A stretch of 64,000 nucleotides of DNA from the NCBI GenBank assembly GCA_963281255.1, contig OY725498.1, forward strand, positions 3,534,001 through 3,598,000, in the 5' to 3' direction. The stretch is from Aphrocallistes beatrix. Its lineage: Eukaryota > Porifera > Hexactinellida > Sceptrulophora > Aphrocallistidae. Positions 5,661 to 43,400 of the stretch are shown piece by piece. The position numbers and the translations under genes are program-made. The notes below the pieces were generated by a model. The model was not told the origin of the DNA, did no database searches, and saw only the letters and a program-made list of their open reading frames with translations. Each line of letters starts with the position of its first letter. Positions within the stretch are counted from its first letter, which is position 1.

Positions 5661-6249
5661 CAGGGCCGGTCCTTCCCACTAGGCAAACTAGGCAGTCGCC
5701 TAGGGCGGCATATTTGTAAACTGAGTGAACTCCTCTATGATATCCATATTTTGCGAAATCTAAATTCACAAGAACTATTGGAACATTGTTTGAAACATTG
5801 TTTGAAAGGACCAAAAGCTGTTCTACAATTTATTTGTGAAAATAAGCTTACAAGGAGTTTTCCAAATACTTTTATCGCTCTACTTATCCTGTTAACACTC
5901 CCAGTTCCTGTTGCAAGTGGTGAGAGAAGTTTTTCGAAGCTGAAACTGATAAAAACATATATTCGTTCTTCAATGATACAGGAAAGACTTGTGGGCTTGT
6001 CAACAATATCTGTTGAACATGAAATAGCGCAAAAGCTAGATCTTAAGAAACTAGTGACTGAGTTTGCTAAAACTAAAGCTAGAAAAGTAGATTTTGATAC
6101 TTAGATTACTGTTATAACTTTACTACCTACACTTCATTTAGTCTTTTTTCAAAATATTATTTTTAGGATATGTATTCGAAAAGAGGGCGGCACGGCTTCA
6201 AATTTGCCTAGGGCGGCGGATTTAGAATCCGACTCGAGGACCGGCCCTG
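5661..6249 (+). mobile_element. hAT element with 8-bp duplication GATGGTTA
   Basis: The ends CAGGGCCGGTCCT and AGGACCGGCCCTG are exact inverted repeats bordered by GATGGTTA on both sides. Subterminal GCCTAGGGCGGC motifs appear near both ends. It carries the last ~110 codons of a hAT transposase, so it is an internally deleted copy. Confidence 0.88.
5751..6104 (+). pseudogene. hAT transposase C-terminal dimerisation domain (truncated)
   Basis: The fragment contains the hAT dimerisation signature around LPVPVASGERSFSKLKLIKT followed by a conserved Arg-rich helix and an ERLVGLSTIS segment. Only the last ~118 codons remain. The N-terminal zinc finger and the catalytic Asp residues are gone. It ends with a stop inside the element and is in the same orientation as the ends described. 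Confidence 0.8.
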
Positions 6250-9893: not shown

Positions 9894-12616
9894 CAGGGTT
9901 TCATACAGAGGGGGGGTGGCCCTGGGATTTCCCCCCCCCCCCCCCAGCCAAAGTTTCCCCCCCCCAGGACAATATCAACAATCTTGAACATGTTGACATT
10001 ATGTGAGATTACAATAAAGGGCAGGCTATATGATACTATTGTTCTAAATCATGAAATCACTATAGCTGATAATAAAATACAGAAGTCAGTAATGATTATA
10101 TGCTATATTATAACTGAATTCGACGATTATTCTCTTTAAAAACTTCAAGAACTTCATCAAAGTTAACTGAGGATAACTCTGGACCTTCGATTGCGATTCT
10201 CATTAAATGTGCGAGATTAGCATTATTAAGCCTATTCCGAAGTCTAGTCTTAATTTGCTTCATGCTGCTGAAAGATCTCTCAACTGAAGCTGTCCCTACT
10301 GGAAGAACAAGAATGATGTTAAGTAGCTTGAATATCTCTGGAAAGATACCAGTGTAAGCTCCAGATGCCTCCATGCGAGCTTTGACATCTTGTAGGCTTG
10401 GTGCTTTGGTTGTCTTATTTTCTTCCCAGACCAACCTTGATTCGTGAATCAATGCTCGCTTGAACAAGCGCCACTCAACATCAATTTCATCCTTGTCAAT
10501 AAGTGATGGGGAAGTAAAAGTTACACCATCATAGAAAACTGTTGCTTCATTGCCATAAAATTGGGCCAAAACTCTCATTTCTTTTTTACCATAATCTGGT
10601 AAAGTTGCTTCTTCTGAAAGAAGAGATGTTGGATTGAAAACAGAGGAGGAGACAAGGAGATCTACAGCTTCACCATAGAGAATCGGTTGCGGATGTTGTG
10701 TAGCAAAGCATCGATATAAGGAAGAGTAACCTTTTCTTATATAAGGAAGAGTAACCTTTTGGAAATCAGTTAAAGATCCAACACAATCACCTCCCGCAAA
10801 GCTACGAGCTGAGCGGCCTCTTGTAATTGTGATTCCATGATCGCTCTCAAGCTCGTCAACCTGAGTGCTCACTCCAGAACACCACTCGGCTTGGTCTTCC
10901 TTCAATTCATCTAGCTCTTTCAGAATGCTTTCAAGAATCAAAGGTAGCCTGCTAAAGTCAGCAGTCTGCCTTTGCATGTAGCAACTAAGCCTGGCAAGGA
11001 GATCAAGTACTTCTGACAAAAGGAAAATGCTGGCTACTCCAGAAAAGGAGCTCAAGACAAGAGAAATTCAGTATGCTTCTGCATCTCCTGACTTCTGGTA
11101 GAGCTCATGTAGAGTAATAATAAGAGCAGGAAGATCTTTACGGATTGCACGAGGCACCGCTCATGGGACAACCACCTCGTGCTACTAGGCTTTACTACCT
11201 TCAGCTCAGGTAAATTTAGAACTGATTGTACAACCTTGAGAGCTTCTGCTTTCTTTGGCGAATAGTAGAATAGTTTCCACAGGTTGGTCATTGTGCCAAA
11301 CATTTTGTTGATTATGGTGATGGACTCAGCAGCTTGAATAGATGTCAGTTGAATTCGGTGGCATGTACAGTGTATGTATACTGCATGAGCTGAGTGCGTT
11401 CTAATCCTTCTTTGGACACCATTTTTACATCCAGAAAAGGTTGCTGCACCATCGTAGCCTTGCCCAACTAGCCGTCTGTAGTCGAGATTTTTCTCTTCCA
11501 TGAAAGAGGTGAGAGCTTTTGTGATTGAGGCAGCATTTACTTCCTTGACATGGAGCATATCTAGAAAGTGTTCCTCGGGATAGCCATCCACAATCCACCT
11601 GCAACAGATAGATAGCTCTTCCTGTGTGGATATATCTTGACACTCATCTGCTAAGATAGAAAAAAATGGGCTGGACCTCAAACTCTGCAATTGCTTTCTT
11701 TCAAGCCACGTGTCAAGAGCTTCCAGAAATATCACTGCACTGTACTTTGATGTGTAATGAGCATTGGAGGCACCTCGAGTGAGGTGCTCTTCCAGCAAAC
11801 CATCTCCATTGGCAACCTGTAAGGCAATTAAATTTGAGTAAACAGTGGTGTAAGGAATCTTGTCCTTTTCCAGGAAATAGATTGATCTCATCAGCTTAAG
11901 TACGATTATACGATTCCTCTCCGCTCTACACGCAGCCTCTTTTGCAGCAGCTGAACACTGTAACTCAAGAACGGATTTCCCGCACTCTGCCTGCTGTGAC
12001 ATACTAGCAGCGGTTGCAGCATCTCTATGACACCGTGACTTTTCGTGTGCTCTCAATAGTTCATTAGCATGGTTCCAGTCGGTAATTCCCCTGCTTGTCC
12101 AAGCACCCCTTGAACCTGAGGTTGGAAGGCCCCACTTCTTGCAGATGGTGCAGAACATGCCTATGCTAGCATCTTTACAAGTTACCCACGGATACTTGTT
12201 TTCCCACTCTCTTTTATAAGAGAGCTTAGCTTTATATTGCTTTATCTGCTCACTAGATGAGTTTGTGTATTTTGGAATTAGGTGGTTTTGGAAGCAGATC
12301 ATCCATGGCAGCAATTCCTGGATTTTGAGAGGAGGGTGGAGAATGACTTCCACTTGATAGTTGTGATAGCTCTTCAGATGCACCTTTATCTATATCCATT
12401 TCACTTGGAGTATCTTCATGTGGCCGCTTTTGTGAAATGAATCGCCTGATATCCATATATACAATATTTGTAGGTTTACTCAGATCTAAATCTAGAGATC
12501 TTAAAAATCTAAAGCTATGTAGGTTAAATGACAAGAATGGTTGTAAATCGATATTTAAGCGTCAATGATTTTAAAAAATCCTCCCCCCCCAGAAAAAAAT
12601 CCTGTATGAAACCCTG
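9894..12616 (-). mobile_element. hAT transposon, near full length
   Basis: The ends CAGGGTTTCATACAG and CTGTATGAAACCCTG are exact inverted repeats with homopolymer C-runs just inside both. It encodes a decayed transposase on the minus strand. The 8-bp flanks are similar but not identical, perhaps because both sides are simple TA-like sequence. Confidence 0.82.
10108..12456 (-). pseudogene. hAT transposase (ZBED/ZMYM-like), frame-shifted
   Basis: Three successive frames give almost the whole protein. A start MDIRRFISQ (12456) leads into a TTF-type zinc finger (WVTCKDASIGMFCTICKKWG ... EKSRCHRDAA). The RNase-H-like core follows, with the first Asp in FSILADECQDIS, the second in LVGQGYDGAATFSG and the hAT CxxH motif in CTCHRIQL. 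The C-terminal dimerisation domain is VGTASVERSFSSMKQIKTRL. Frame changes near 12270 and 11110 separate the parts, and a ~24-bp tandem duplication lies near 10717-10760. Length (~780 codons) is normal for hAT. The coding quality suggests recent loss of function. Confidence 0.85.
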
Positions 12617-13611: not shown

Positions 13612-13820
13612 TATATACTATATACGTATATATACAGTGGAACCTGTATATAACGGCCACCCATGGGACTGGACAAAATTGGCCGTTATACACAGGTGAC
13701 CATTATATACAGGTGATTGTCTTAATCCCTAAAAGGTATCAACAGTGCAATAAATATAGGTTTATAGAAATCCAATACTTTAAGTAATTACATGAAACCA
13801 TAGCCTACTATAATAAGGCC

Positions 13821-14050
13821 TGTTGCGTGGTATTCTGAGGCACCGTGGTATTTTGAGGCACTAGTCAAATTAACCATGGATATTCATCTAGCGTGGTATT
13901 CTGAGGCACCGTGGTATTCTGAGGCAACACCAATCCTGTGATCATGATGCGTCATTTACATAGTTCCAATTTAGACAATGACTTTCTATTTGAGTAGTGA
14001 TACTTATATGTTTTCCCTGCTCTAAATAGTGTATTGTGCTTCATGACCTG
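13821..14050 (+). repeat. Ginger left terminal inverted repeat
   Basis: 230 bp. It contains four copies of GTGGTATTCTGAGGCA or a one-base variant in the first 105 bp, a tandem subterminal array that probably binds the transposase. Confidence 0.85.
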
Positions 14051-14124
14051 GAATGCTTAAATGATATGTTTATTCGTCTCATTATTCAAGACATACAATA
14101 CAAATAGAAACAAATATGTGAGTA

Positions 14125-17100
14125 CTATAATATTGTTTGAGAATTCAGGGGTTCTTCAATTATTCCGAAAGTGGGAGTTGGACAATTGATCATAGATATC
14201 ACTGGTTCGTAATGATTAGCAAAGTTCTTGATATATATTGCTAACTTTGTGTCCTTGCTACCTTTGAGTAGGCTCCAGCGTACCTGATGGCTAAATTTAC
14301 TTTCTTGTAGTGTATTTAAGTAGTTGTCGTTAGCAATATAAATATCAACTTGGAGAATTGCTGAAGCTGCCATGATCTCGATATCTCCACCCCAAACACC
14401 ATCAAGATGTGGCATTTTTTCATTAAGGAAGTAGTCGCTAGGTGTAATACGGAATTGTCTAAAATACCACCCTAGTTTGGTAGTGCCTTCGCTCGCAATG
14501 AAGTTAGAAATGATTCTTCGTAGTTGTTGGTGGCTGTCTTGTTCTCCTGTAATTATTTTTGATAGACACCTGAATAGACAGTTTCCATCACCTACAATAG
14601 CTTCCGTCTCCCAGGGTTGGTATCTATAGAGTGGCTCATCAATAAGGTGATCTGGTTGCCTGCAATTAGTCTGGTATGTAATACCCAACATCGCACACTT
14701 ATCACGTTGCCATGCTTCGCCAACAACTGTAATTGTTGGACTTTTAACTGCCATATTGGGAATCCAGTTTCGCCAATCATCAGGGTATGTTTCCCATAAC
14801 ATTGTGTTTAAGTATTGAATTGCCTAATGAGAAAGTTCAGAATGAGAAGTGCCTGTCACTACACAAGAGTCAGACTCATGGTTTCATCCAGGCGTTATGC
14901 GGCGGGCCAACAATTTAATCTTATATTGGTCTAGGCGCGCGAAAATTGCCTGAACTCCGATATCGTAATATTTAGTGTATAGGCTAGCGGCGCTAGGTGT
15001 ATCAAAATAACTAGAGGGATATTTTAGGCGCATATCCTACAAAAGCTGGATGAAGCCCTGGGTTCAGTCCACATAAAATCAGATAGGTTTCGTTGAAATT
15101 TACTTGTCTTGAGTATTTTTAATGTTAAGGACACTCTTACAAACTTACCACTCCATACAAGACCTTTTCTGTATATTTTCCAGCTAACACGTCGCCGAAC
15201 ATAGGATACAAATCTGTTGTCCAGCCTAATAATTTGTCTCGAATCGCCTTTTTCTATAAATTAGACTTGTATAGTAATACTTGTAATATCAATATTTAAT
15301 TTTGGAAGAGAAGCACCGTTGAGTTTTGTTTTAGAGTGGTCTATTTAATGTTACAAATAATGTCAAGTTTTGTTAAATCGTCCTTGGCAATACGGCAGAA
15401 TACATACCATATCATCTTCAGTTGAATCTTTTAGAAAAGTAAAAAGAAGTGTGTTCGGAACATACTCGTGATATCTATTAAGCATATTGTGCAGTTGCTC
15501 ATGCAATGGAGTAATAAATGTTCCATCCCGAATATTCTGTGTTAGGATAGCCTGAAAATAAAATTTGAATGATAAACCTGCATCTAGGACAACAGATCAA
15601 TTATTTTAAAGAAGAAAAAAAGTTAAGTAAATGTCAATCTTAACTGGTTAATAATTAGTATTTATATTTATTATTTAAAATTGGATGTTGTAAACCATAA
15701 ATAGATTGAATAATATACAAACCTTGAGAGTGTTGAGATGTGCAATTATTGAGTCACTAGGAAACCCAAAAATAATGGGGTCACTCTAAACAAAAAATAT
15801 ATTCTCAAATTTTGCTAAATGCTTAACAACTAACATAATACCACGGAATGGATAAATGTATTTAAGAATATCATCGAATGTATAGTTTACCACTTACTTT
15901 AATCCGTTTCTTGCCAAAAGTATCAATATGAGAATCTGCTGTAATTATAATATTTGCTTTCCTGGACAAATTAGCATCCCGTTCAAAGTAAGGGCGAGCA
16001 ATGTGAATAGGAATGCGTTTTTCTTTCTGCTTCCCTAGCTGGTCTTGTGATATGACTACATGGCTGTCAGTAACCCGTTTGACTGTTTGTGGCCCCATGT
16101 ATTTTTGCTGTCTTTTAGTATTAGGCATTTTCTTTAGTTTAGGCATGTTTGTGTATAATATCATATCACCTGTTTTAATTTGAGGTCTACAAATGGAATA
16201 GAAAATATATCAGTCATATCCTCGTTACCTAAAGGTGGACTCACCACTTGAAATTTAAGCTATATTTCATTGGAGAAGTTTATAATTTTTAAAAATATGC
16301 CTATGCTAGGCTAATTTAAGCCAAATAAGATGAATTAGATAAAATAGTGCATATAAAACCTGAATCCACCTCTTGCCATGTAGATCCGCAAATTTCCAAT
16401 ATTAAATAAAACACACCTGGTATCATTAACTTTCTTATCAAATTGCCTTTTCTGCCTTAATTGATCTGATCGAATCGAATTTGCTGCACATTTGTATATT
16501 TTAGCTCGCTCATGGTCAATGGAAGATATCTCTTCAAGTCCTTGTTCTCGAAGTTCATCTTCTGTATGTTGGAATTCAGCGAATATGTTTTCCTCTAACT
16601 CCAAATCTTCTTGTGGAGTGGATATGGTATCATTGATCGCTGAGAGAAGATCCTCATACCTTGACTCTCTTCCAAACATTACCATATAAGGAGTATATCC
16701 GTGGGATTTCTTTTGGGTACTGTTCATAGAAAGAACTGCAGACTTTAGTAGATCTGACCAAATCTTTTTAGTTTGGAGGTTCAGCTTGTTCAACCTCCTA
16801 ATTAATCGAATTATAATTTACCATGAGTAACTTTGTATAATAAAATTATAATATTGTGATGACAGACTCTTAAAAGGTCCTTTAAATTTAATAACTTATT
16901 TACACAAAATGAATAATTTTTAAAAATTGAAATTCTGCCCAATTAACAGACTGTTCTCCCTTAATTAAGAAGTAGTTCAAGAAATATAAACATTACGTTT
17001 TGAGAATCTTGTTATGTGCTTCAACTAATCCATTAGCCATAGGGTGATAGGCACGGGTCTTACGATCGTCGATTCCTAGCTTTTGGTGAAATTCCTGAAA

Positions 17101-18103
17101 TATCTACATATATAATAAGTTAATTAGTCGATATTGATGATAAACATAACGTATAAAATTGAGTTTCTAAACACACCTTGCTAGTAAACTCCTTTCCTTG
17201 GTCGTGCTGAATAACATTCGGTAATCCGACATCAAGATATATATCTTTTAGATTCTCAAGAATCTCTTCAGATGTTTTAGATTTTAGTGCTCGAGCTACT
17301 ACAAATTTACTCAAATAACACACAGTGACAAGGATGTGTCGAAAACCGTCTTGAGTTACTGGGAGATCGCATATTAAATCCATTCCAATATGCAGCCATG
17401 GTCGATCTGGGGGTGGAATAGGCTGTAGTTTCCTTTGTGGCTGTGGTGGCAATGAGGCTGTTAATTGGCATATCTCACATGATTTGACCTTTTTGAAATG
17501 ATGAAATGATAAATTAAAAAAATTTAAGCGAAAACTTTAAGTAAAACTTGTTTGAGATTATAAGTTGAAGAAATGCTAATGAAAACCATCTTGATTTACA
17601 CTAATTCAAAGCTGCATTGTAGTAAATACACTAATCCGATTAAGGTGTGAGAAAATTGATGCAGTTGAATAAGTTTGATAATTTTATACTTACATAGTCC
17701 TCGACGCAGGGATACATTCCTTTCCAAGTGAATCGCTGTAGTATTGCAGAATAGGTGGTGTTGATTCCAGGATGGCCAACCTGGTCATGCAGCTTCCTTA
17801 ATATTCCCTGAACTTCCCCAGCTGTTGGCACTTCAACTTGCGTCTCTTTCCCATTAAGAATGATCCTCTTTAAAAAGCAAGTTTGAAACAAGTATGTACA
17901 ACACTATACATTATAAAACTTCTTACATATGAAAGCATTTTACTGTACAAAATTACCTTGAATAGTTTATCTGATTCCTCAACTGAATACAGTGATATCT
18001 TTCTTCGGAAATTCCATTTTGTCTTGGATGTAGAGGATACCGCAGGAGGGTATACACCGTTAGAAAGGAAATTATGAATATCTTCATATTCCTTTGGCTC
18101 CAT
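14125..18103 (-). CDS. Ginger1 integrase-like transposase with C-terminal OTU domain
   Basis: Ten-exon model on the minus strand: 18103-17957, 17867-17694, 17488-17177, 17103-16997, 16797-16417, 16186-15898, 15785-15723, 15551-15408, 15253-15149, 14823-14125. All introns are GT-AG and all phases agree, giving 806 residues. HHCC zinc-binding domain: His76, His81, Cys111, Cys114. Integrase core: Asp144 (GMDLICDLP), Asp203 (IQHDQGKEF) and Glu239 (NGLVEAHNKILK); the last two are 35 residues apart (DD35E). A GPY/F-like module follows (KYMGPQTVKRV, exon 6). Exons 8-9 hold an unrecognised domain. The last exon is an OTU-type cysteine protease with [12 protein letters not shown] (Cys656), WGGDIEIMAAS and a late His778 (NHYEPV). 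Transposase is expected to excise and insert DNA; OTU enzymes cleave ubiquitin chains. Whether the OTU part is always in the same protein needs RNA evidence. Confidence 0.85.
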
Positions 18104-18854
18104 TCAGCAAATTCTGGATATTTGCTAATTTTCAATTTTGAAAAATGACTAATAGTCAAGTTCGCTTTTATTGAATCCGAACGGCAAAAATGGTTCGTAA
18201 TAAAGCAGTCATTAAAAAGTCAATCAACATGAAGAATTAAATGACCTTATAGTGTAATACAAATTTTATGAGGTCAAAATTGGGTTTGTTCATTATAAGC
18301 GATCCTGATCGCATGATAGATTAAACTTAATTTTGTCATACTACTTGTAAGTACAATATTCAAGTTGATTGAAGGACCAAAATGTAAATATTAATATTGA
18401 TTTATAAAATTTGTCATTCGCGAAATAACTATCTTTTATACATGTATTATATCTTTAGGATTCATAATTGTAATTGTTACATACTTAGATTGTCAAGCCC
18501 AGAAATGCAACCAAATAAATGCAAACTTAATCGTGTTATATTACGTAAATAAGCAAATCATATCGTGATGAATTCAGAACACAATATCAATGTAACCACA
18601 ACTCATCATCTAGGTTTTCAATGTTACATATGTACGTATTTCATTTACTTTCAATTATCAAATCAATGTAAAATTTTAAAAATATCGATTTAAGCCAAGT
18701 TCACTTGACTTTTTAGCAAAAAATGAAAAAACTAAGTTAGTTTTGCTTTGTGAATACCAAATTAGTTTCAAAGTTACGTAGTTTAAACTCAATTTTGACT
18801 TAGTAGTTTAAGAAAAACTTAATTTGAGTAGTTTGGTAAATAATCAGGCCCCTG
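18104..18854. other. Ginger 5' region between gene start and right TIR
   Basis: AT-rich sequence inside the transposon, upstream of the predicted start codon at 18103. It presumably holds the promoter and 5' UTR. No second gene was recognised. Confidence 0.5.
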
Positions 18855-19084
18855 CAGGTCATGAAGCACAATACACTATTTAGAGCAGAGAAAACATATA
18901 AGTATCACTACTCACATTGAAAGTCATTGTCTAAATTGGAACTATGTAAATGACGCATCATGATCACAGGATTGGTGTTGCCTCAGAATACCACGGTGCC
19001 TCAGAATACCACGCTAGATGAATATCCATGGTTAATTTGACTAGTGCCTCAAAATACCACGGTGCCTCAGAATACCACGCAACA
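18855..19084 (-). repeat. Ginger right terminal inverted repeat
   Basis: Inverted partner of 13821-14050 with about four mismatches in 230 bp, including a TTCTATTTGAG / TTCAATGTGAG difference. Confidence 0.85.
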
Positions 19085-20476
19085 GGCCTCAGAGTAACTT
19101 GCGAATTTGGCACTAGGGATGCAGTAGAAGATGGTTGAAGAAATACATGAGCTGCCTTAAATCATTAACAAAGCACAATAGAGCTTAGGAATATATTACC
19201 AGCATATATAAATATGGTGTCAAAGCACCCATATCCGTTATTAAAATTTAGATTAGTCATCAAATGATTGCGCAACAGGCTATATTTGGGTCAAATTTAG
19301 TGATTTTCAGAGGTCGTTTAAGGGCACTTCTAAGTGTTTTTATTATAAAGTTTTTCGCATAGAACTGAGAAGTGAATGTGTTAATGCGAAAAATTTGGAA
19401 TTTTTTCATGGAATGTTCTTACATTCAAGTGTTGCTATGGAAACGTGTTTTGGTCAGTTGGGGCTATATCTTGAAAACAGCGATAGCTAGACATTCAAAT
19501 TTAATCCCATTTGATAGCAAATAGGCTACTTCCTATTAAGCTATAATACAATTTATATGTCTTAATTCAATAATTTACGAGTTATTAGACAATTTATCAT
19601 ATTGGTCACATTTGGTAATTTGTCAAATATCTCGTAAACCATTGAATTTAGACACAGAAATTGTATTATAGCTAAATAGGAAGTAGCCTATCAAATGGGA
19701 TTAAATTTGAATGTCTAGCTATCGCTGTTTTCAAGATATAGCCCCAACTGACCAAAACACGTTTCCATAGCAACACTGGAATGTAAGAACATTCCATGAA
19801 AAAATTCCAAATTTTTAGTATTAACACATTCACTTCTCAGTTCTATGGGAAAAACTTTATAATAAAAACACTTAGAAGTGCCCTTAAATGGCTTCTGAAA
19901 ATCACTAAATTTGACCCAAATATAACCTGTTGCGCAATCATTTGATGGCTAATCTAAATTTTAACAACGGATATGGGTGCTTTGACACCATATTTATATA
20001 TGCTGGTAATACATTCCTAAGCTCTATTGTGCTTTGTTCATGATTTAAGGCAGCTCATGTATTTCTTCATCCATCTTCTACCGCATCCCTGGTTAAGTTA
20101 CTCTTAGGCCTTATATATAGTAGGCTATGATGAAACTTGTTTATCGTTCGTAACAGGTCCTGTAATAAATACATAAAAAGGTAAAAAAGGTGATGGCCGT
20201 TATAGACAAGTTATGGCCATTATACACAGTTTTAGGATCAGTAAGGGACTACAAACGGGTGGCCGCTGGCCGCGTTCCGCAGGTGACCGCTATATAGTCA
20301 GGTCAATATGATGTATGACCCCAAAATAATTGCAAGAAATTGTTTTATTGCATTTTTCCGTAGTATCATGTCTTAAGAGTGACATACTAAAAGTTTACCG
20401 AAATCGGACTATCCGAAAGTGGATTGGTACGACTCCGTCGTTGACCCCGGACTATACAAATCGCCGGTTTTGAAAA

Positions 20477-27073: not shown

Positions 27074-27346
27074 ATGGATACCCCTGATGTGAAAGGACTG
27101 GAGTTCAGCACATTAGATTGTAAGGATGTGAATGCTAACCTTCTCTCCAAGTTCGAAGAACCTAATAGCTCTGATGATAACCCTTCTGTTGGATCAGCCG
27201 ACCCTCTTACTGTCTATCTTAGAATTCGACCTTTCTCAGCAAAGGAACAAAGGAATAATAACATTTCATGTGTAAAGGTTCTGAATAGAAAAGAGTTGAT
27301 AACTCTGCCTCCTGTTAACTCCCACACTCATATGGGAATCAAAAAG
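27074..27346 (+). CDS. kinesin-6 exon 1 (N-terminus, first motor strand)
   Basis: Residues 1-91. An acidic leader precedes [15 protein letters not shown], the first beta-strand of the motor. Acceptor-like CCCAG and CTTAG just before the ATG suggest a non-coding upstream exon. Donor is AAAAAG|GTAAGA. Confidence 0.88.
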
Positions 27347-30300
27347 GTAAGAGTTATATTTTATTTTCTAATTATACTTGGTAAGGTCCAGCGGACCAAT
27401 TTAAAAAAAAAATATATGGTAGAGATCGACGGGAATCCCGGTTAATTTCCGGTTTTGCCGAGAATTGACTATTTTGTCGGAATCGTCTAAATTTCCTGGG
27501 AACTAGCCGGGTAATTAAAACAGCTTTATATAAGAAACGTATAAATGTTAAACTGTACCGTTACTGCATCACTCCATCAAATTGAAAAGTGACCATTGGG
27601 TGTAATAATTATCCTTACTATTAAAACTCGATTAATGTGTATATATCTATCTATCTGTAACGAATTGATTGAAGAAACTGCCAGGCACAGAAAGCTGATA
27701 TTTGGAATGTGGGAGTCTTTTGGCTATGGCTCCAGTAAGTTCTGAGTTCAGACAAAAATGTCGACCCATCATGGAATTATGGCGTCATTGTCACCTTTTT
27801 ATAATTAGAAATTTCAGTTTTTCGACTTTAACTCAGCCATTTTAAGTGATAGAAGGCTGAAATTTTAATAGAATGTGTATATTAATATTATTCACATGTG
27901 ATACAACTATCATCAAAAAATGATGACTCATCACTCTATTATGATGTCATCATTACGCATCGAAAACATTTTTATAAATTGACAAATTTGGTGATTTTTC
28001 GAGCGATCTCGATTATAGCAGTAGGACAGACGTATTTAGAGATGTTATCTCCCATATAACTAATCAATGTGATCCCAGGCGCCCAAAGGGCGTTTCAGGC
28101 GGACACTTTGTATCCGCCAGCCGCGCAGCGCAAGCAAGCGAAGCGCGCTTGTTACATTAAAGTTAATTTAGTACCTTCATATATTACCAGATAATAGATG
28201 AACTTCATATTGTGATAGTTAGACTCTCATATTGTATATATTTGTTTGTCAGAATGTTCATGTACTTTTAAAATCCCGGCAAAAATTTGACAATCCCAGA
28301 CCGATCCCGTCCCGGCTGAAAATCTTATCCCGGTCGATCACAAATTTATGGGTGTTAAATGAATATAATTAACCGATGCACAATGTTTATGAGCTGACAA
28401 GGTTACCCTATGATTTTCGATCCGACACCTGATTGCACAATTAATTGTGCATAGTTTTATTCTGTTCTTATGACTCAAAAATAATATTATGACCTATTTT
28501 GCAACTCGACGCCATCTAATGAAGAATTAATTCTGAAAAAAGTTCCCAGGGGAATTTTCTTTCATTGCGATCCAATTTTGCACAAATTTATTTAAACTCA
28601 AATTCTATCCAAACTTGAACTTTTAATTTAAATTATTAATCAATCTAACCAAACTATAAGTGATGATACAAATATAGAATTCGGTCTAACGATATGTAAT
28701 ACAAATATACAATCATAGGCGCAGAAAAAGGGGAGGGGTAATGTGCTATAAAGTTCCCTCCGCCCAAGCATAAAAATTGATCGACATGTCATATACGATA
28801 CTAAAGTTACATCCTTAATATGAGTTGTGAATCTTGTGATACTACTTGAAGTAGTAGATTTTAGAACAGCTTTTAGACAAAACATAATATAAGTGTATAT
28901 GATAGCGGTATTATCTTAATCTCAACAAACCATGTCTTTGCTGAGACAAACGCATTTTTCCTAATCTAATTTCATGATACAAATTTATCAAACAAATTAG
29001 CCCTGTCCAGCGTATCCATCTGCTGTTTGTGGATACTGATTCCCACGACATGATGCTGTGAGGAAGTTACCTGTTCCCCATAGCAAACTGTTTATTCTGA
29101 GCAAACTGTCTCCCCTTGTAGTGAGCTGTTCCCATAGGTAGTTACTACGAAGTAACCTGCATCACTCTAAAGTAGATATTCTCCCATGTTATGAAACTTA
29201 TTATACTATTTGTAAATTGTGTTATCTAGAAAGAGCAGGATTTCTAATTTCTCATTAAATCTATTAATTTTATTTAAGTTTGAATACCTGGGGGATACTT
29301 TACCTTTAATTAGCTACTCGGAAGAAATTGGCTAAATTTATAATTACACCGCTTTGCTGGTCAGCTGGTTTTGTACCGCAAATGCTGGCTAAACCAACAT
29401 TTGGCTGGTTATTTGAGAGGTATTAAAAAGTCCAGTGCGCATCCGCAATCGTCACATTGCCATGCCCAATTGACACATTGCGCATGAGTTATCATCACTG
29501 CACATAAGCATCGTACCGCATGCACTCGCACCACAAATCAACACGTACCAAGTCAACTAGTACTAAGTCATACCAAATCAACAGAAAATCCTGATTTTTG
29601 CTGTGTTCTTACATATGTCTCATACAAAATGCTATAAAATCATACATTTCATTTTGGTAGTTAGCACGAATTGACTTTACTATTTGGTACTAGTTGAATG
29701 GTTCTGTCACGAAACATTTGCCCGGGGGAACCAATTTTAGCCGGTGTCATATTGTATTCATCCCCTATAGTGGTTTTCCCCACGGGAAGTTTACTATGTA
29801 GTGATTTCCCCCCCCCCCCTGGGAGGTTTGCTATGTAGTGATTTTCCCTCTGTTAAATTACTACTTAGTAGATAATTACATGATTAGATAATTGCGTTTT
29901 AATAGCATAAACATGAAAAACTCAATCAATACTGGGGAAAATAAAAGAATAGAAAAGCTAAAAGTGATGGAAATATCATTTTTACCAATCGATAGAACTA
30001 CATCGTAATGGAAGCTACTTGAATTATCAATATATATCCCGAAATTGTTAATATTTTCTTTATTATGACCATGTCTATTCCAGCAGAGTCTTTCTCCAAA
30101 TAGATTCCAGGTGTATATTGGAGTTTTTAGCAATGCTGCTGCAGAAAAAAATTTCCTTACATATATATTTACGTAATGCAGATTGTTGGTCTTCTTCTCC
30201 AGTAACTATGAATGATAAAGCTCTAAAAAGGCAGTTACCATCGCCGATAATATGCTTTATTCGGATCGGTTGCGAAAATGCTGTAAATTTTACATTTAGC

Positions 30301-37400: not shown

Positions 37401-40400
37401 CCGATTCACCAAAACCCCTTATACGTATAACAAATTGGCAACATAGAAGTTTAGCAAATTTCATGGGGAAATTTTTCGAGTCTTCCGACGCGACCTCCAA
37501 CTTTGTAAAATCAATGAGGAGACACTGCAGTTTGCCCATGGAGTGCATTGTTACTAAATGAACTGCTTAGCATGTCATGTCAAGTTCATCCCAGAGTTCA
37601 TGGCTCATGCCATGTTCATACCACAACTCAAAAGTTCATGAAAATAGTCAATTATATGAACTTTGTTCATGATATGGCAACATTGATGGAGTGTAATATA
37701 ATCTAAACGTCCTGGGTTTTCACTAAATGTTGAACAGTTACTGTTATAGGTTAACAACACTACAAACACTACATAATCCAAATATAGTCAAATAGAATAT
37801 ATAATTACTCATTATCATGAACCCTGTCTATTTTTGTGAGACCTTGGAGGGTGAGGAGGCCGCCAAATGGCCCTGCTGGCCCCCTCTCATAGGGCCTGAA
37901 GAGGTAGAACGTTTCGTAAAAATGAGTGGGAATCCTTCGATCTAAGTTTACTGTCTAACTTTGTAAAATCAATGAGGAGACGCTGCAGTTTGACTATGGA
38001 TTTTCGAGGAAAAAAAAACTATTAAATTTGGACTATTATCATAGTTATACTATCGTAGGTATTGGTATATATAATAATAAAGGGAAATCAATCAACCATA
38101 CTTATATCTTTAGTTATAATTTAATTGAGCAAATTGTAAATAATTACGTGACAGACAGTGATACGTATACTAGTCATAATTTTCTACGAAAATGTATAAT
38201 TCTTATACCCTATAGAGTATACAAGCGATCTTTGCTCGATTTATATTTATATACAAGCGCTTCGCGCACTTTTTATAATAAAAACTGCAGATATTTCGTA
38301 TTATCCAATTTGGTTATTACTGGAGTTCTTAATAGAATTACTAATTTCACAATCAAATTCAAAGGTGCAACGATGTCATTATCCATGATTATTGAGAAAA
38401 CACTTTTTCAGGATGAAAATTTTAGTTTTCGAACACAACTCCGAGATTATTTATGATAGAGGGTTGAAATTTCAATTTCAGGTATTCGAGGATTGTCCGA
38501 TAAGTTCCCAAAATAATTTGACTATAAGATGCACTTATTGAAAGCTAACTCTAGCATATTTTCACTTTATTTATCTGTTGTAAGCAACAAACAAACAAAT
38601 AATTATTTAGCACTTCGAAATACGATATTCTGAATGTGCACCCCTAAACCCTGTATCAACCCTTGAAGGTGGTTTCTAGCATCTTTTTTACAAAATATGC
38701 ACATTGTCTTTTTAATTACTCACTCAAATTTTGTGTACTACACTCACCATATGATATCCTAAGTTGACTAATTCATTAAAAAATGGCAAAGAATTATGAA
38801 TTATTCGAATAATTCATAATTCAAGCATGAATTAGTCAACCATAAGCAAGGTTGACTAATTCATGAATTATTGAATAATTCGAATAATTCATAATTCCTG
38901 AAATATGAATTATTCGAATAATTCATAATTCAGGAATTATCAATTGTTCGAATAGTTCAGAATCATGAATTGTGAATTACTGTATTTGAAAAATTCATCC
39001 ATATAATTTATGATATTTTCTCGTAAAAAACATTCAATTTTGAATAATTCTTCTCAGGCTTGATGAATTATGAATTATTCGAATTATTCGAATAATTCAT
39101 TAATTCATGAATTAGTCAACTTAGATGATATCTACATGCAAATTTTTATCCCAACGACTTGCCAGTTCTTCAATCAACTCGGACATTCAACCATACGAAA
39201 TTCAAGTGTTTTAATTTAGGAGATACTTTACCTTTAGTGTATAAATTAAAAAGATTGATTTTAATGAACAATTGATATTTGCATTATATTATGCTATTAT
39301 TTTGAACAGGTCACAACATTTTAATATTTGCATATGGTGTAACCAATTCCGGAAAGACCTACACAATGACTGGAACACGAGCTAACCCAGGAGTGCTACC
39401 TCGTGCTTTAGACACCATTTTCCAGGCAATAGAGCACCAACAACCCGAGAGTATGATATATAAGCCTAAAGGTATATAATAATTTGTGATAGTTTGACTT
39501 TGCATATTCACAAATTCCTTAACTCTATTATTTCATTTGAGATCTTATAACTGTACTAGAATCTCTTAATTTTACTTTAAACATACTAGGTTTTGCAAAT
39601 GCTACACGGCTAGACAAAGATATTGCTGATGCTGAACTTGCTAAAAAGCGAAAATACATGCGTAAAAAAATGCAGAAGACCAGTCTAATGTGTGATTATA
39701 GCAAATTATCTGAAGGATCTGAATCTCAGATGTCCACCCTTCTCTCTACTCAGTCCAGCGAGCAAGAGGTTGGAGGGAACTTAAAGGACTCTAGGATAAA
39801 CCTTGATCCTCACGACTGTAGGTTGGTTATGGTTATTTTATTTGGACTAGCTGAAATAAAATTTTGTGTAATAGTATTTACTAAAAGAATATGATTTACT
39901 ATAATACGATCATTGGACGTCGATTACACTAACCGGACAAAAGTATTTGACTACTTCATTCTTTCCGATACAAATAAGACTGAATTGGATCTTTTCATTG
40001 TGGGAAATGTGTTCAAAATTATAATATATACTAAGAGATTTAGGATTCGAATTAGTCAGAATAGACACATTTACTATTTGCATGTGAAATTACGAAATGT
40101 TCAAATATTTTTTGTCCAAGTAGTTACGTATTCAATATGTCTTGTTTTTAATAGTATTCTTGATATGGAAACAGGCGAAACGAAATACTCTCTATGGGTA
40201 TCATTTGTGGAAATCCACAACGAGTCCATCTTCGATCTCCTCGATCTTTTTGGTCCACATAAGGTTGGACAGAATAAAAAGGTCGGACTTAAATTTGCTG
40301 ATGATCAAGATGGTAATGTATACATTAAAGATGTTACAGAGGTAGGTCTATTTGATTCAATAAGGTATGTTTATATGCGGGGTATATATATATATATATA

Positions 40401-43400
40401 TATATTCCCCTTCGAGCCCTGCTGGACCATTCGCATGGTATATCTCCACCTCCCCTACCTTCCCAAATTGTGTTATGTTGGCCAATCGGGCGCAACACCA
40501 CGCGTTACACGACAAACCCCCTCTAACCACCGGATCTGGACGCATTTGCGTTCATGCCCCCAACTAAGGTGGCAGATCCTAAAGATCATACCACCCGAAT
40601 TATCCGTCCCCACTCGTATGGATATATCCCTGGAACGAACAGCTGTACAACAGCTCCGAACCCAAAACCCAGATACACAGTTTGTACTCCACGATGCTAA
40701 GGATGATGAATGAGTGAACGGAACTTCTAAATTTTGACCCCGGAATATTCATCCGTTTCATCCCCTAGAATGTTTGTTTATCGTTTTAATAGCCGTGTTT
40801 TTTATATAGTTAGGTATAAAAACTGGGATGAGAATCATCAATACTATAGAATTGAACGCAATGTGTCATCCCTCAACAGCATTGTTAGGATGATAGTTGT
40901 TCGGGTGCCCATTCATACATGTTCCATAGGTAAGGGTGGAATTATTCTACTGTTCAGGTAGTCATTTACCAATATACGTTTCCTACTAAATAAAACGTAT
41001 GGTTTAGGGAAGATTTTGGAAAATCTGTCATCAGGATATTTTAACAACAATCCACAGCTTTTTGCTCTGAACAAAGCAAAGTTAGGAAGCATATTTAATT
41101 TTAGGAGAAATTCTGTATGACAAAATGCACGAAATTTCTGGGGACGAAAGTTGTAAAAGCATTTATCAGAGCACTCTTCGCTTCTTAACCCTGCGCGAAT
41201 GGAGAACTTTTTTCCGCTTTAGACGCCTTGTTTTAGATTGATAATTCATATGTTGTTTATTTTTATTCCATGTGCCGATTTTAATGTTTCCATTACAACT
41301 TTTATAATTATCAAAGTATAGCCATTTAATTTGCCTGTGATATCAGGCCAGTGATAGTAATGCTAACTTCCCAGGTTAAACATTTTTCCTAGTCCAGGTC
41401 GGGGTAAATAGTCAAGCTGGTCGATGTCGATAGCTTCACCAAGTTTCTTTTAATCCTTAATGAGCTAGTTAAATTTCATTAGTACTGTTGCGTGGAATTT
41501 TGAGACGCATATAATTTTAGGACATAGTATTATTGAACCAGGGATTGCGTAGAATTTTGAGACGCATAGAATTCTGAGACATGTGGTACTGAACCAAGGA
41601 TTGCGTGGAATTTTGAGACGCATATAATTCTGGAACTGAGTTCACTAGTTGCGTATATACTCTCAAAATTATTAATTCATACCCAAGATTTCACTTGACC
41701 TGATTTATTGCTTTTCATTATGCCCTTGTTATTAATATAAAACTTGATTTAGCTCTAAAAGAACCATCAATGGGGGTTGCGGGCGGGATTTTACACCAAA
41801 ACTAATTACGTCGAATGTATAACTCAATCAATCGTAATAAATGCCCTTACACCTTAAATACAATGAAATGCTGATTGAAATAATGACAATATATGTGGCA
41901 GCTAAATGTTGATGCGGGCAGTGGGGCTGTAACAAGTTCTCAGTGGCATTAAAAAAATGTATCTGATATTATGTGCTTTTTAACTTAGAATTCTAAATGG
42001 ATCGTTTGGGGGTACGTCCGAACATTTACTAATGATGGCCTGTATCTAAATAATTGACATAGTAAATCTAATAGCATGTCTCAAAATTAACGCAAAACTG
42101 AATCCATAGTTCAATAACACTAGGGTCTCAGAATTATATGCAATCCCTGGTTCAAAAACACTATGTCTCAAAATTCCACGAAACAGTACTCACTTATCCT
42201 TAGTTCCACTTCATTTATTTAGTAAATTTCATTTTCAAAGTTCCAAATTATATTTTCCGTCTTTTGTGGTGTGATCTAGATTGAATGCAAAACTGCAATG
42301 GAAGCTCTTCACCTGTTTCTTTTGGGTGAACAGCAGCGGAGAGTAGGAGAAACCAAGCTGAACCAAAACTCTTCTCGTAGTCACATTATATTTTCTCTAA
42401 AATGCATCAGGATTGATGAAATCGGCTGCCCCAAACGAGTTAATACTTTAAGCTTAGTTGATTTGGCTGGTTCCGAGAGACAGGTAAGTATTTGCAGAAG
42501 TGCTGGACAAAATAAACATTTGGCGGTGGCTATTTTACCTTTTTGATAGCTTAAGGACCACCAAATTCTAAATACACTATATAAATAGGCCAATACTTGT
42601 TAGAATTTGGTGGCTATCTCCACCGAATCACCAGATTTGTCGAGCACTGATTTGCAGGTTAATCATAATATTGAGAGCTATATTTGTCAATTTGTTAGAG
42701 CACGTTACTATCGAGTTCTTTTAATTTAAACTCGTAAGTAATGTATTTTGAAGGAAGATAGCATACTTGCCAACTGTCCCGTTTTTGGCGGGACGTCCCG
42801 CTTTTTTCACTCTTCTATTGAGCTAATTTTTTCCAGTGTCCCGCTTTTACATGAAATTTCCCCATTATGTCCCGGTTTTTTTATCCTATGTATAGTACAT
42901 TTCTATTGCGTCCCGCCATGTCCCGCCAAATTCACCGCTGCGTCCCGCTTTTATCATGGCTCAGGTTGGCATGTATGAGATAGTGTACTTTCCTACGTCC
43001 TTCTGTGGCATTCTGCGATGATTATCTATAATCGGGGCTGTGATTTTTCATTTTTACCAAATTTTGTATTTGTAGGATAACTATTCGTATGTACCTGTAA
43101 ATATTTCACACTGGTATTTTCTGAATAACCATTATAATCCATCGACTTTGAAATTAATTAATTTATTTATTTAATACTTTAAGGATAATATTCTTTAAAA
43201 CATCGAATATATTCCATTATACGTATGTATTTTGAAGATATATTATTTTGATGCTATTATGTTCTTAGATTGGCACTAAGGCTGAGGGAGATCGCTTGAA
43301 AGAAGCTGGTAATATCAATATGACCCTGCTAACCCTGGGTAGATGTATAGAAACAATGCGATATAACCAAAACAGGAGTGGTACAGCTCTCAAAATTGTT

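Follow-up and report, generated by a model that had tools for sequence, protein, structure and literature searches.

An apparently young Ginger1-like DNA transposon with an integrase-OTU fusion and GNNC target duplications in the sponge Aphrocallistes beatrix

The window, a stretch of 64,000 nucleotides from the hexactinellid sponge Aphrocallistes beatrix (assembly GCA_963281255.1, contig OY725498.1, positions 3,534,001 to 3,598,000 of the forward strand), contains a complete Ginger1-like DNA transposon that sits in one arm of a host fold-back repeat (Table 1). The element starts with TGTTGCG, ends with CGCAACA, and has terminal inverted repeats (TIRs) whose similarity ends at 230 bp, with 3 of the 230 positions mismatched; these are the TGT...ACA ends and near-identical 230-bp TIRs that a preliminary description of this DNA had pointed out. 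The subterminal motif CGTGGTATTYTGAGG sits in tandem 18-bp units, and all eight of its matches in the window lie within the two TIRs (mean in 100 shuffles, 0.00). We propose these repeats as transposase-binding sites.

Table 1. Features of the transposon and of its host repeat (positions within the window)
Feature	Position	Strand	Remarks
Complete Ginger1-like DNA transposon	13821..19084	gene on -	5,264 bp; bounded by TIRs and TSD; empty sites are paralogous; other copies exist
Left TIR	13821..14050	+	230 bp; 3 mismatches to right TIR
Right TIR	18855..19084	-	230 bp
Left TSD, GGCC	13817..13820	.	exact match to right TSD
Right TSD, GGCC	19085..19088	.	exact match to left TSD
Subterminal motif CGTGGTATTYTGAGG, four copies	13826..13926 (starts 13826, 13844, 13892, 13910)	+	putative transposase-binding sites
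Mirrored copies of CGTGGTATTYTGAGG, four	18981..19079	-	in right TIR
Exon 1	17957..18103	-	start codon and YPYY-like segment
Exon 2	17694..17867	-	His half of H2C2 zinc-binding domain
Exon 3	17177..17488	-	CxxC half of H2C2; catalytic Asp 1 and 2 of integrase core
Exon 4	16997..17103	-	catalytic Glu (D-x35-E)
Exon 5	16417..16797	-	downstream of integrase core
Exon 6	15898..16186	-	GPY/F-like motif: GPQTV; GPYTV in family L048
Exon 7	15723..15785	-	linker, weakly conserved
Exon 8	15408..15551	-	linker
Exon 9	15149..15253	-	linker
Exon 10	14125..14823	-	cysteine protease domain of OTU type, with GDGNC and NHYEP; stop codon
Host fold-back repeat, ends CATAGCCTACTA / TAGTAGGCTATG	13799..20129	.	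transposon sits in its left arm

The gene (18103-14125, minus strand) has ten exons that, spliced in phase at GT...AG sites, encode 806 amino acids followed by a stop codon, reproducing the ten-exon, phase-consistent model proposed earlier. In a Pfam scan of the 806-aa protein, the domains above their gathering cut-offs were Integrase_H2C2 (PF17921; E = 1.7e-17, 63.7 bits, cut-off 25.5), rve (PF00665; E = 1.1e-10, 42.2 bits, cut-off 32.6), and OTU (PF02338; E = 4.6e-9, 37.3 bits, cut-off 23.3), and 35 residues separate Asp 203, the second Asp of the integrase core, from Glu 239. The HHCC, D-D-35-E, and OTU signatures of the preliminary description were thus recovered, and the element is confirmed as what that description took it for, a transposon of Ginger1 type whose integrase-OTU fusion is intact. 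Both the D-x35-E residues, which are identical, and the YP...WNF...Y segment of exon 1, which resembles YPYY, are retained in the related families L042, L045, L046, and L048. The GPY/F-like motif reads GPQTV in this element and in L042, GPCTV in L045 and L046, and GPYTV in L048; GPQ in place of GPY/F counts against the interpretation that we favor below. In more distant families, exon order is retained and splice sites are recognizable at most of the boundaries reached by matches.

Because GGCC is a palindrome, the flanking tetranucleotides could have belonged to the TIRs. We therefore examined empty sites with a 300-nt query in which the flanks were joined by a single GGCC, the junction lying at 150. 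Of 2765 candidate places, 40 were scored, and every one matched at 95-100%, from query positions 107-130 to 298-300, unbroken over the junction; they belong to the abundant fold-back repeat that hosts the element and are thus paralogous empty sites. The opposite arm of the host repeat itself carries the mirrored AGGCCT without an insertion. Since the empty sites run unbroken across a single GGCC, the latter is a true target-site duplication (TSD) and not part of the TIR. The exact duplication described earlier is thereby confirmed; its departure from the CCGG and CCGT targets of Ginger1 was absent from that description.

TSDs were counted in the window and 40 fetched loci, with the outermost ends paired by hand; the count omits 11 one-ended cases from 10 loci and five loci with no pair (L045-L048 and L075). 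Exact 4-bp duplications border 24 of the 26 two-ended insertions, and all 24 have the form GNNC, 20 of them within AGNNCT; none is CCGG, CCGT, or ACGG. GNNC occurs at a frequency of 3.4% in the remainder of the window. The remaining two-ended copies, C13 and C9, agree at only three of the four bases, a point against the favored interpretation. The target preference for GNNC recurs in all three copies of a second family (L042-L044). No complete TIRs turned up in the sequence fetched for families L045-L048.

The preliminary description had called the copy young and proposed searching the assembly for close copies and empty sites. In addition to the empty sites, this search yielded six full-length copies in the 100.5-Mb genome, the nearest diverging by 0.7% outside exons. 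By this measure the element is indeed young. Fold-back non-autonomous derivatives are also present; two of these, located at unrelated sites, show no difference across 961 bp. On the grounds of recency provided by the 0.7% divergence and by this identity, the element may still be active. The whole frame is open in two of the six full-length copies, this one and one on C8 with the same 2,421-nt frame, and broken in the other four, which speaks against the favored interpretation. The two open copies differ by 17 indels in non-coding sequence lying between the TIRs and by none in exons. Their 29 coding differences comprise 13 non-synonymous and 16 synonymous changes (binomial P = 6e-5 against neutrality), and the seven that fall in the OTU exon comprise one and six, respectively (P = 4e-4); linker exons 7-9 show four non-synonymous and no synonymous changes. 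The limited number of differences available to this test and the pattern in the linkers are points against the favored interpretation. Comparison of dN/dS with more distant families was set aside because synonymous sites are saturated.

Substitution patterns suggest that the OTU part is held intact by selection. Its catalytic Cys is present in all 36 sampled OTU exons that cover the position and its His in 37 of 38; of 18 OTU clusters, one (L085, L092) has Tyr in place of the Asp of GDGNC. An integrase exon lies upstream on the same strand at 31 of 38 OTU loci, and the other seven have no listed integrase exon nearby. Both the Asp replacement and these seven loci weigh against the favored interpretation. 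OTU folds are commonly deubiquitinases, and the solved relatives found by sequence are OTUD1 (the best), OTU domains of viral L polymerases, and OTUD5. An AlphaFold prediction made for the OTU exon from its sequence alone had a mean pLDDT of 29.8 and was discarded, a further point against the favored interpretation. Ulp1/C48, an alternative protease, gave nine matches in the genome among 14 scored candidates. Viral contigs gave 28 pattern matches to exon 3, none of which was confirmed as a relative.

We interpret the element as a young, probably autonomous Ginger1-type cut-and-paste transposon, and assign a probability of about 0.85 to this reading together with the following mechanism. The spliced 806-aa protein would bind the four 18-bp repeats of each TIR, and its integrase-type DDE center would cut beside the TG/CA ends and join them over a 4-bp stagger at palindromic GNNC, preferably AGNNCT, leaving the GNNC duplication. 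The same-ended fold-back derivatives would be mobilized as well. The retained C-terminal OTU domain is probably a catalytically active deubiquitinase that aids transposition; most likely it works on ubiquitin signals, either where transposase and DNA form their complex or where repair takes place, or else on the transposase itself. Rather than having a repair role at the donor or target site, the domain could, as the preliminary description suggested, counter ubiquitin-dependent processes, shielding the transposase from degradation or its loci from silencing, which the deubiquitinase activity common among OTU folds, the conservation of the domain with its catalytic residues, and the kinship to OTUD1, viral OTU domains, and OTUD5 would all fit. 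We consider such shielding conceivable but somewhat doubtful, given that Bao, Kapitonov and Jurka 2010 (PMC2836005) proposed a role in DNA repair from similar data.

Two readings that deny mobility or the transposon class fare far worse. A domesticated, immobile host gene with relic TIRs, akin to GIN1 or Imagin, would be compatible with the nine introns and the intact frame; Imagin is a multi-exon host gene derived from Ginger1 (PMC12863088). We reject this reading as highly improbable in view of the near-identical TIRs, the exact TSD, the paralogous empty sites, and the five further full-length copies; the DDE residues are also intact. Integrase domains are common to Gypsy elements, and the region could in principle belong to a Gypsy LTR retrotransposon, or to a Polinton, with accidental inverted repeats. 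Only three open frames of at least 110 aa lie inside the element and all overlap exons, with no apparent space left for a polymerase or a reverse transcriptase; in the 806-aa protein, no Pfam domains other than integrase and OTU scored above cut-off, and GNNC duplications border many copies. Hence, this origin, too, is very unlikely and was rejected. A closer contest concerns the targets, which might reflect ordinary variation within the published Ginger1 group rather than any variant. Ordinary membership agrees with the TGTNR termini, the length of the TIRs, the 4-bp TSD, the order of the domains, and the OTU, and the targets published by Bao et al. 2010 come from Hydra elements, with 23 autonomous Ginger1 entries in Repbase in 2022. 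With none of the 24 exact TSDs matching the published targets and GNNC also in the second family, we rate ordinary variation a serious possibility at a little under even odds.

That Ginger1 can carry OTU and Ulp1 domains has been in the literature since 2010, their role being, as far as we found there, proposed rather than tested. The present family, which is young, has an open frame and paralogous empty sites, uses a defined target, and conserves its OTU residues, offers a workable system for such a test. Target choice by integrase-type enzymes is a second question on which it would be informative, if a single type of transposase has shifted from CCGG to AGNNCT. More tentatively, and with the balance tilting against it, a separate Ginger1-like lineage may exist here, with many families that commonly carry OTU, targets shifted to palindromic AGNNCT, continuing movement, and transposition that depends on an active OTU deubiquitinase. 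If so, it would be a natural system for asking why integrase-type transposases carry ubiquitin proteases.

Among known systems, Gypsy (Ty3) integrases share H2C2 and DDE with this protein, and their GPY/F has a GPY/F-like counterpart in it, whereas Gypsy LTR retrotransposons have direct rather than inverted terminal repeats; no reverse transcription genes are seen here. Ginger2/TDD elements share the integrase-like transposase, TGTNR termini, TIRs, and a TSD of 4-5 bp, but prefer AT-rich RTATAY targets and lack GPY/F and YPYY (PMC2836005); the present element targets GNNC and has segments that resemble both motifs. GIN1, GIN2, and Imagin are likewise multi-exon genes with a Ginger1 integrase; in Imagin, inverted repeats are absent and the DDE triad is no longer intact (PMC12863088), whereas TIRs, TSD, DDE, and OTU are kept here. 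The closest match is Ginger1 itself, in which integrase-OTU fusions, mentioned with reserve in the preliminary description, have been known since 2010, e.g., in Ginger1-1_HM, Ginger1-11_HM, and Ginger1-1_AC (PMC2836005). In common are H2C2, the DDE core, GPY/F-like and YPYY-like segments, the C-terminal OTU, TIRs in the 40-270 bp range, a 4-bp TSD, and TGTNR termini (TGTTG here). In contrast to the Ginger1 elements of Bao et al. 2010, which target CCGG or CCGT/ACGG, have at most four introns (their Table 1), and measure 2.6-4.6 kb in the OTU families of listed length, the present element targets GNNC/AGNNCT, has nine introns, spans 5.3 kb, and is accompanied by fold-back derivatives. On balance, the element is best assigned to a young family that is Ginger1-like but differs in the targets it prefers.

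The window contains a complete DNA transposon, a young Ginger1-like element of the known integrase-OTU (ubiquitin-cutting domain) design, placed by its features. Its terminal inverted repeats (TIRs), described from the sequence as nearly identical, are 230 bp each and differ at 3 positions. Given that the flanking GGCC is palindromic, we tested whether it is a target site duplication (TSD) or part of the repeat, using an empty-site query in which one GGCC links the left and right flanks. All 40 places scored, of 2765 candidates, matched this query at 95-100% identity, unbroken over the junction, with matches extending 20-43 bases to the left and, to the right, to the query end or at most 2 bases short of it. 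Thus, the element lies within a single member of an abundant repeat, the other members of which lack it; the proposed GGCC duplication was borne out, and GGCC as part of the TIR was ruled out. AGGCCT is also present, unoccupied, in the other arm of the host fold-back repeat, and a copy from a different Ginger family, L045, lies at an AAGGCC site in what appears by eye to be this host repeat. AGGCCT in the arms of this repeat is apparently a landing site for two Ginger families.

Features of the window and the basis on which they were read
Feature	Position	Strand	Remarks
Transposon	13821-19084		GGCC on both flanks
Inner limits of TIR similarity	14050/18855		
Integrase-OTU gene	18103-14125	minus	ten exons
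Host fold-back repeat	13799-20129		ends CATAGCCTACTA/TAGTAGGCTATG; ATGAAAC on each flank
Phrases like GGCCGTTATACACAGGTGACC	13630-13720		also in flanks of locus L037, thus near each of the two insertions; likely a further dispersed repeat
hAT-type or ZMYM-like transposase remnants	10108-12383	minus	frames resembling such remnants by eye
hAT-type or ZMYM-like transposase remnants	5751-6104	plus	frames resembling such remnants by eye
Kinesin-type motor gene exons	27074-27445	plus	piece resembling such exons by eye
Kinesin-type motor gene exons	39913-40713	plus	piece resembling such exons by eye; continues into GIY-YIG-like retroelement fragment
Penelope-like retroelement, open frame, 436 aa	32654-33964	minus	by eye; reverse transcriptase-like YFDD and GIY-YIG-like end

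The gene splices in phase at GT...AG sites to encode 806 aa, as the preliminary description had proposed, and a profile search confirmed both predicted domains: Integrase_H2C2, rve, and OTU exceed the curated Pfam cut-offs, and three more weak matches fall under theirs. The same frame is open, without a stop, in the copy on C8 (non-coding divergence 2.6%), with no exonic indels against 17 in the non-coding parts between 14051 and 18854 (P about 7e-6 under an even spread of indels). Among loci of other families with 56-69% OTU-exon identity, the exon order is that of the window element in L042 and L048 (all ten exons) and in L045 and L046 (nine; no convincing match to exon 7). Where exon matches reach the exon end, AG or GT adjoins, by eye, at most boundaries; some matches, such as that of exon 6 in L042, end before the boundary.

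At least six full-length copies were found (window, C8, C1, C17, C13, and C9), the frame being open end to end in two (window and C8) and broken one or more times in each of the other four; in C17, C13, and C9, AG is additionally absent from at least one of the acceptor positions used in the window copy. Non-coding divergence from the window copy is 0.72% for C1 (17/2376) and 0.76% for C17 (18/2378), in agreement with the suggested youth of the element, and 2.6-3.4% for C8, C13, and C9. Genome-wide, there are at least 42 left-end matches (40 of 120 candidates scored) and, across many families, at least 152 matches to the OTU exon (150 of 509) and at least 150 to the integrase exon, exon 3 (150 of 683).

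Non-autonomous derivatives are represented by L049, which consists of two inverted 308-bp left-end copies with 1 mismatch and a smaller, 345-bp element with similar ends nested at its center in AGTACT; several other loci show the same end pattern. L049 and L058, located in different places (C19 and C1) with unrelated flanks, are identical over 961/961 bp; other pairs among ten aligned L049-type elements differ by 0.6-4.6%. Of all the evidence, the match between L049 and L058 points most strongly to recent movement. The nested fold-back element, with its Ginger-like ends, is central in the 961-bp derivatives L049, L052, L053, and L058 and in similar loci.

Coding differences between the window copy and C8 comprise 16 synonymous and 13 non-synonymous changes (binomial P 6e-5), distributed as 6 and 1 in the OTU exon (P 4e-4), 10 and 8 in exons 1-6 (P 0.0016), and 0 and 4 in linker exons 7-9. 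We compiled 38 OTU loci (18 clusters at 90% identity), namely the best 20 among the OTU-exon matches and 18 more distant ones picked because they were listed with no or almost no stops, a sample biased towards intact domains. In this set, the catalytic Cys is present in 36/36 loci covering the position, the His in 37/38 (all but the broken copy on C13), and the GDGNC Asp in 34/36 (Tyr in L085 and L092); the roles of these residues are those known for OTU enzymes. In 31/38 loci, there is an integrase exon on the same strand up to 7 kb upstream; for L032, L036, L089, L091, L093, L094, and L100, no upstream integrase exon was found among the 150 exon 3 matches listed. The best sequence relative with a solved structure is OTUD1 (4bop, E 2.2e-7), ahead of OTU domains from viral L polymerases and then OTUD5. 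Conservation of the sequence suggests that OTU catalysis helps the element in some way.

Each TIR carries four copies of the motif CGTGGTATTYTGAGG, eight in all, and at up to 1 mismatch the rest of the window has none; by eye, similar units are present at the L046 family end and in the nested 345-bp element. These copies are putative transposase-binding sites. The enzyme would cut at the TG/CA ends and join with a 4-bp stagger, as expected from the integrase family. Assistance by OTU catalysis is the least certain step.

Pairing outermost ends by hand yielded 26 two-ended insertions: 6 full-length window-family copies, 3 of the L042-L044 family, and 17 short derivatives. Exact 4-bp duplications flank 24/26, those of C13 and C9 matching at 3/4 bases. 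All 24 are GNNC, with AGNNCT context in 20/24 (3/3 in the L042-L044 family), and the single flank of one-ended cases is GNNC in 11/11; the background frequency of GNNC in the remainder of the window is 0.034.

In the parts of the literature surveyed, which included PMC5753468, OTU or Ulp1 domains were already known in Ginger1, as the preliminary description had supposed, and a DNA-repair role is suggested; the termini are TGTNR, the TIRs span 40-270 bp, and some families have 1 to 4 introns (Bao et al. 2010, PMC2836005). Ginger1 TSDs are 4-bp (PMC10045372, using 23 Repbase entries), and Imagin is a domesticated Ginger1 gene (PMC12863088). No published mention of GNNC targets was found in the papers and passages covered, with Repbase entries outside this scope. 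The targets published for 112 Hydra elements are CCGG (75%) and CCGT/ACGG (24%) (Bao et al. 2010, PMC2836005); these fit 0/24 exact duplications here, and the element is therefore filed as a Ginger1 variant.
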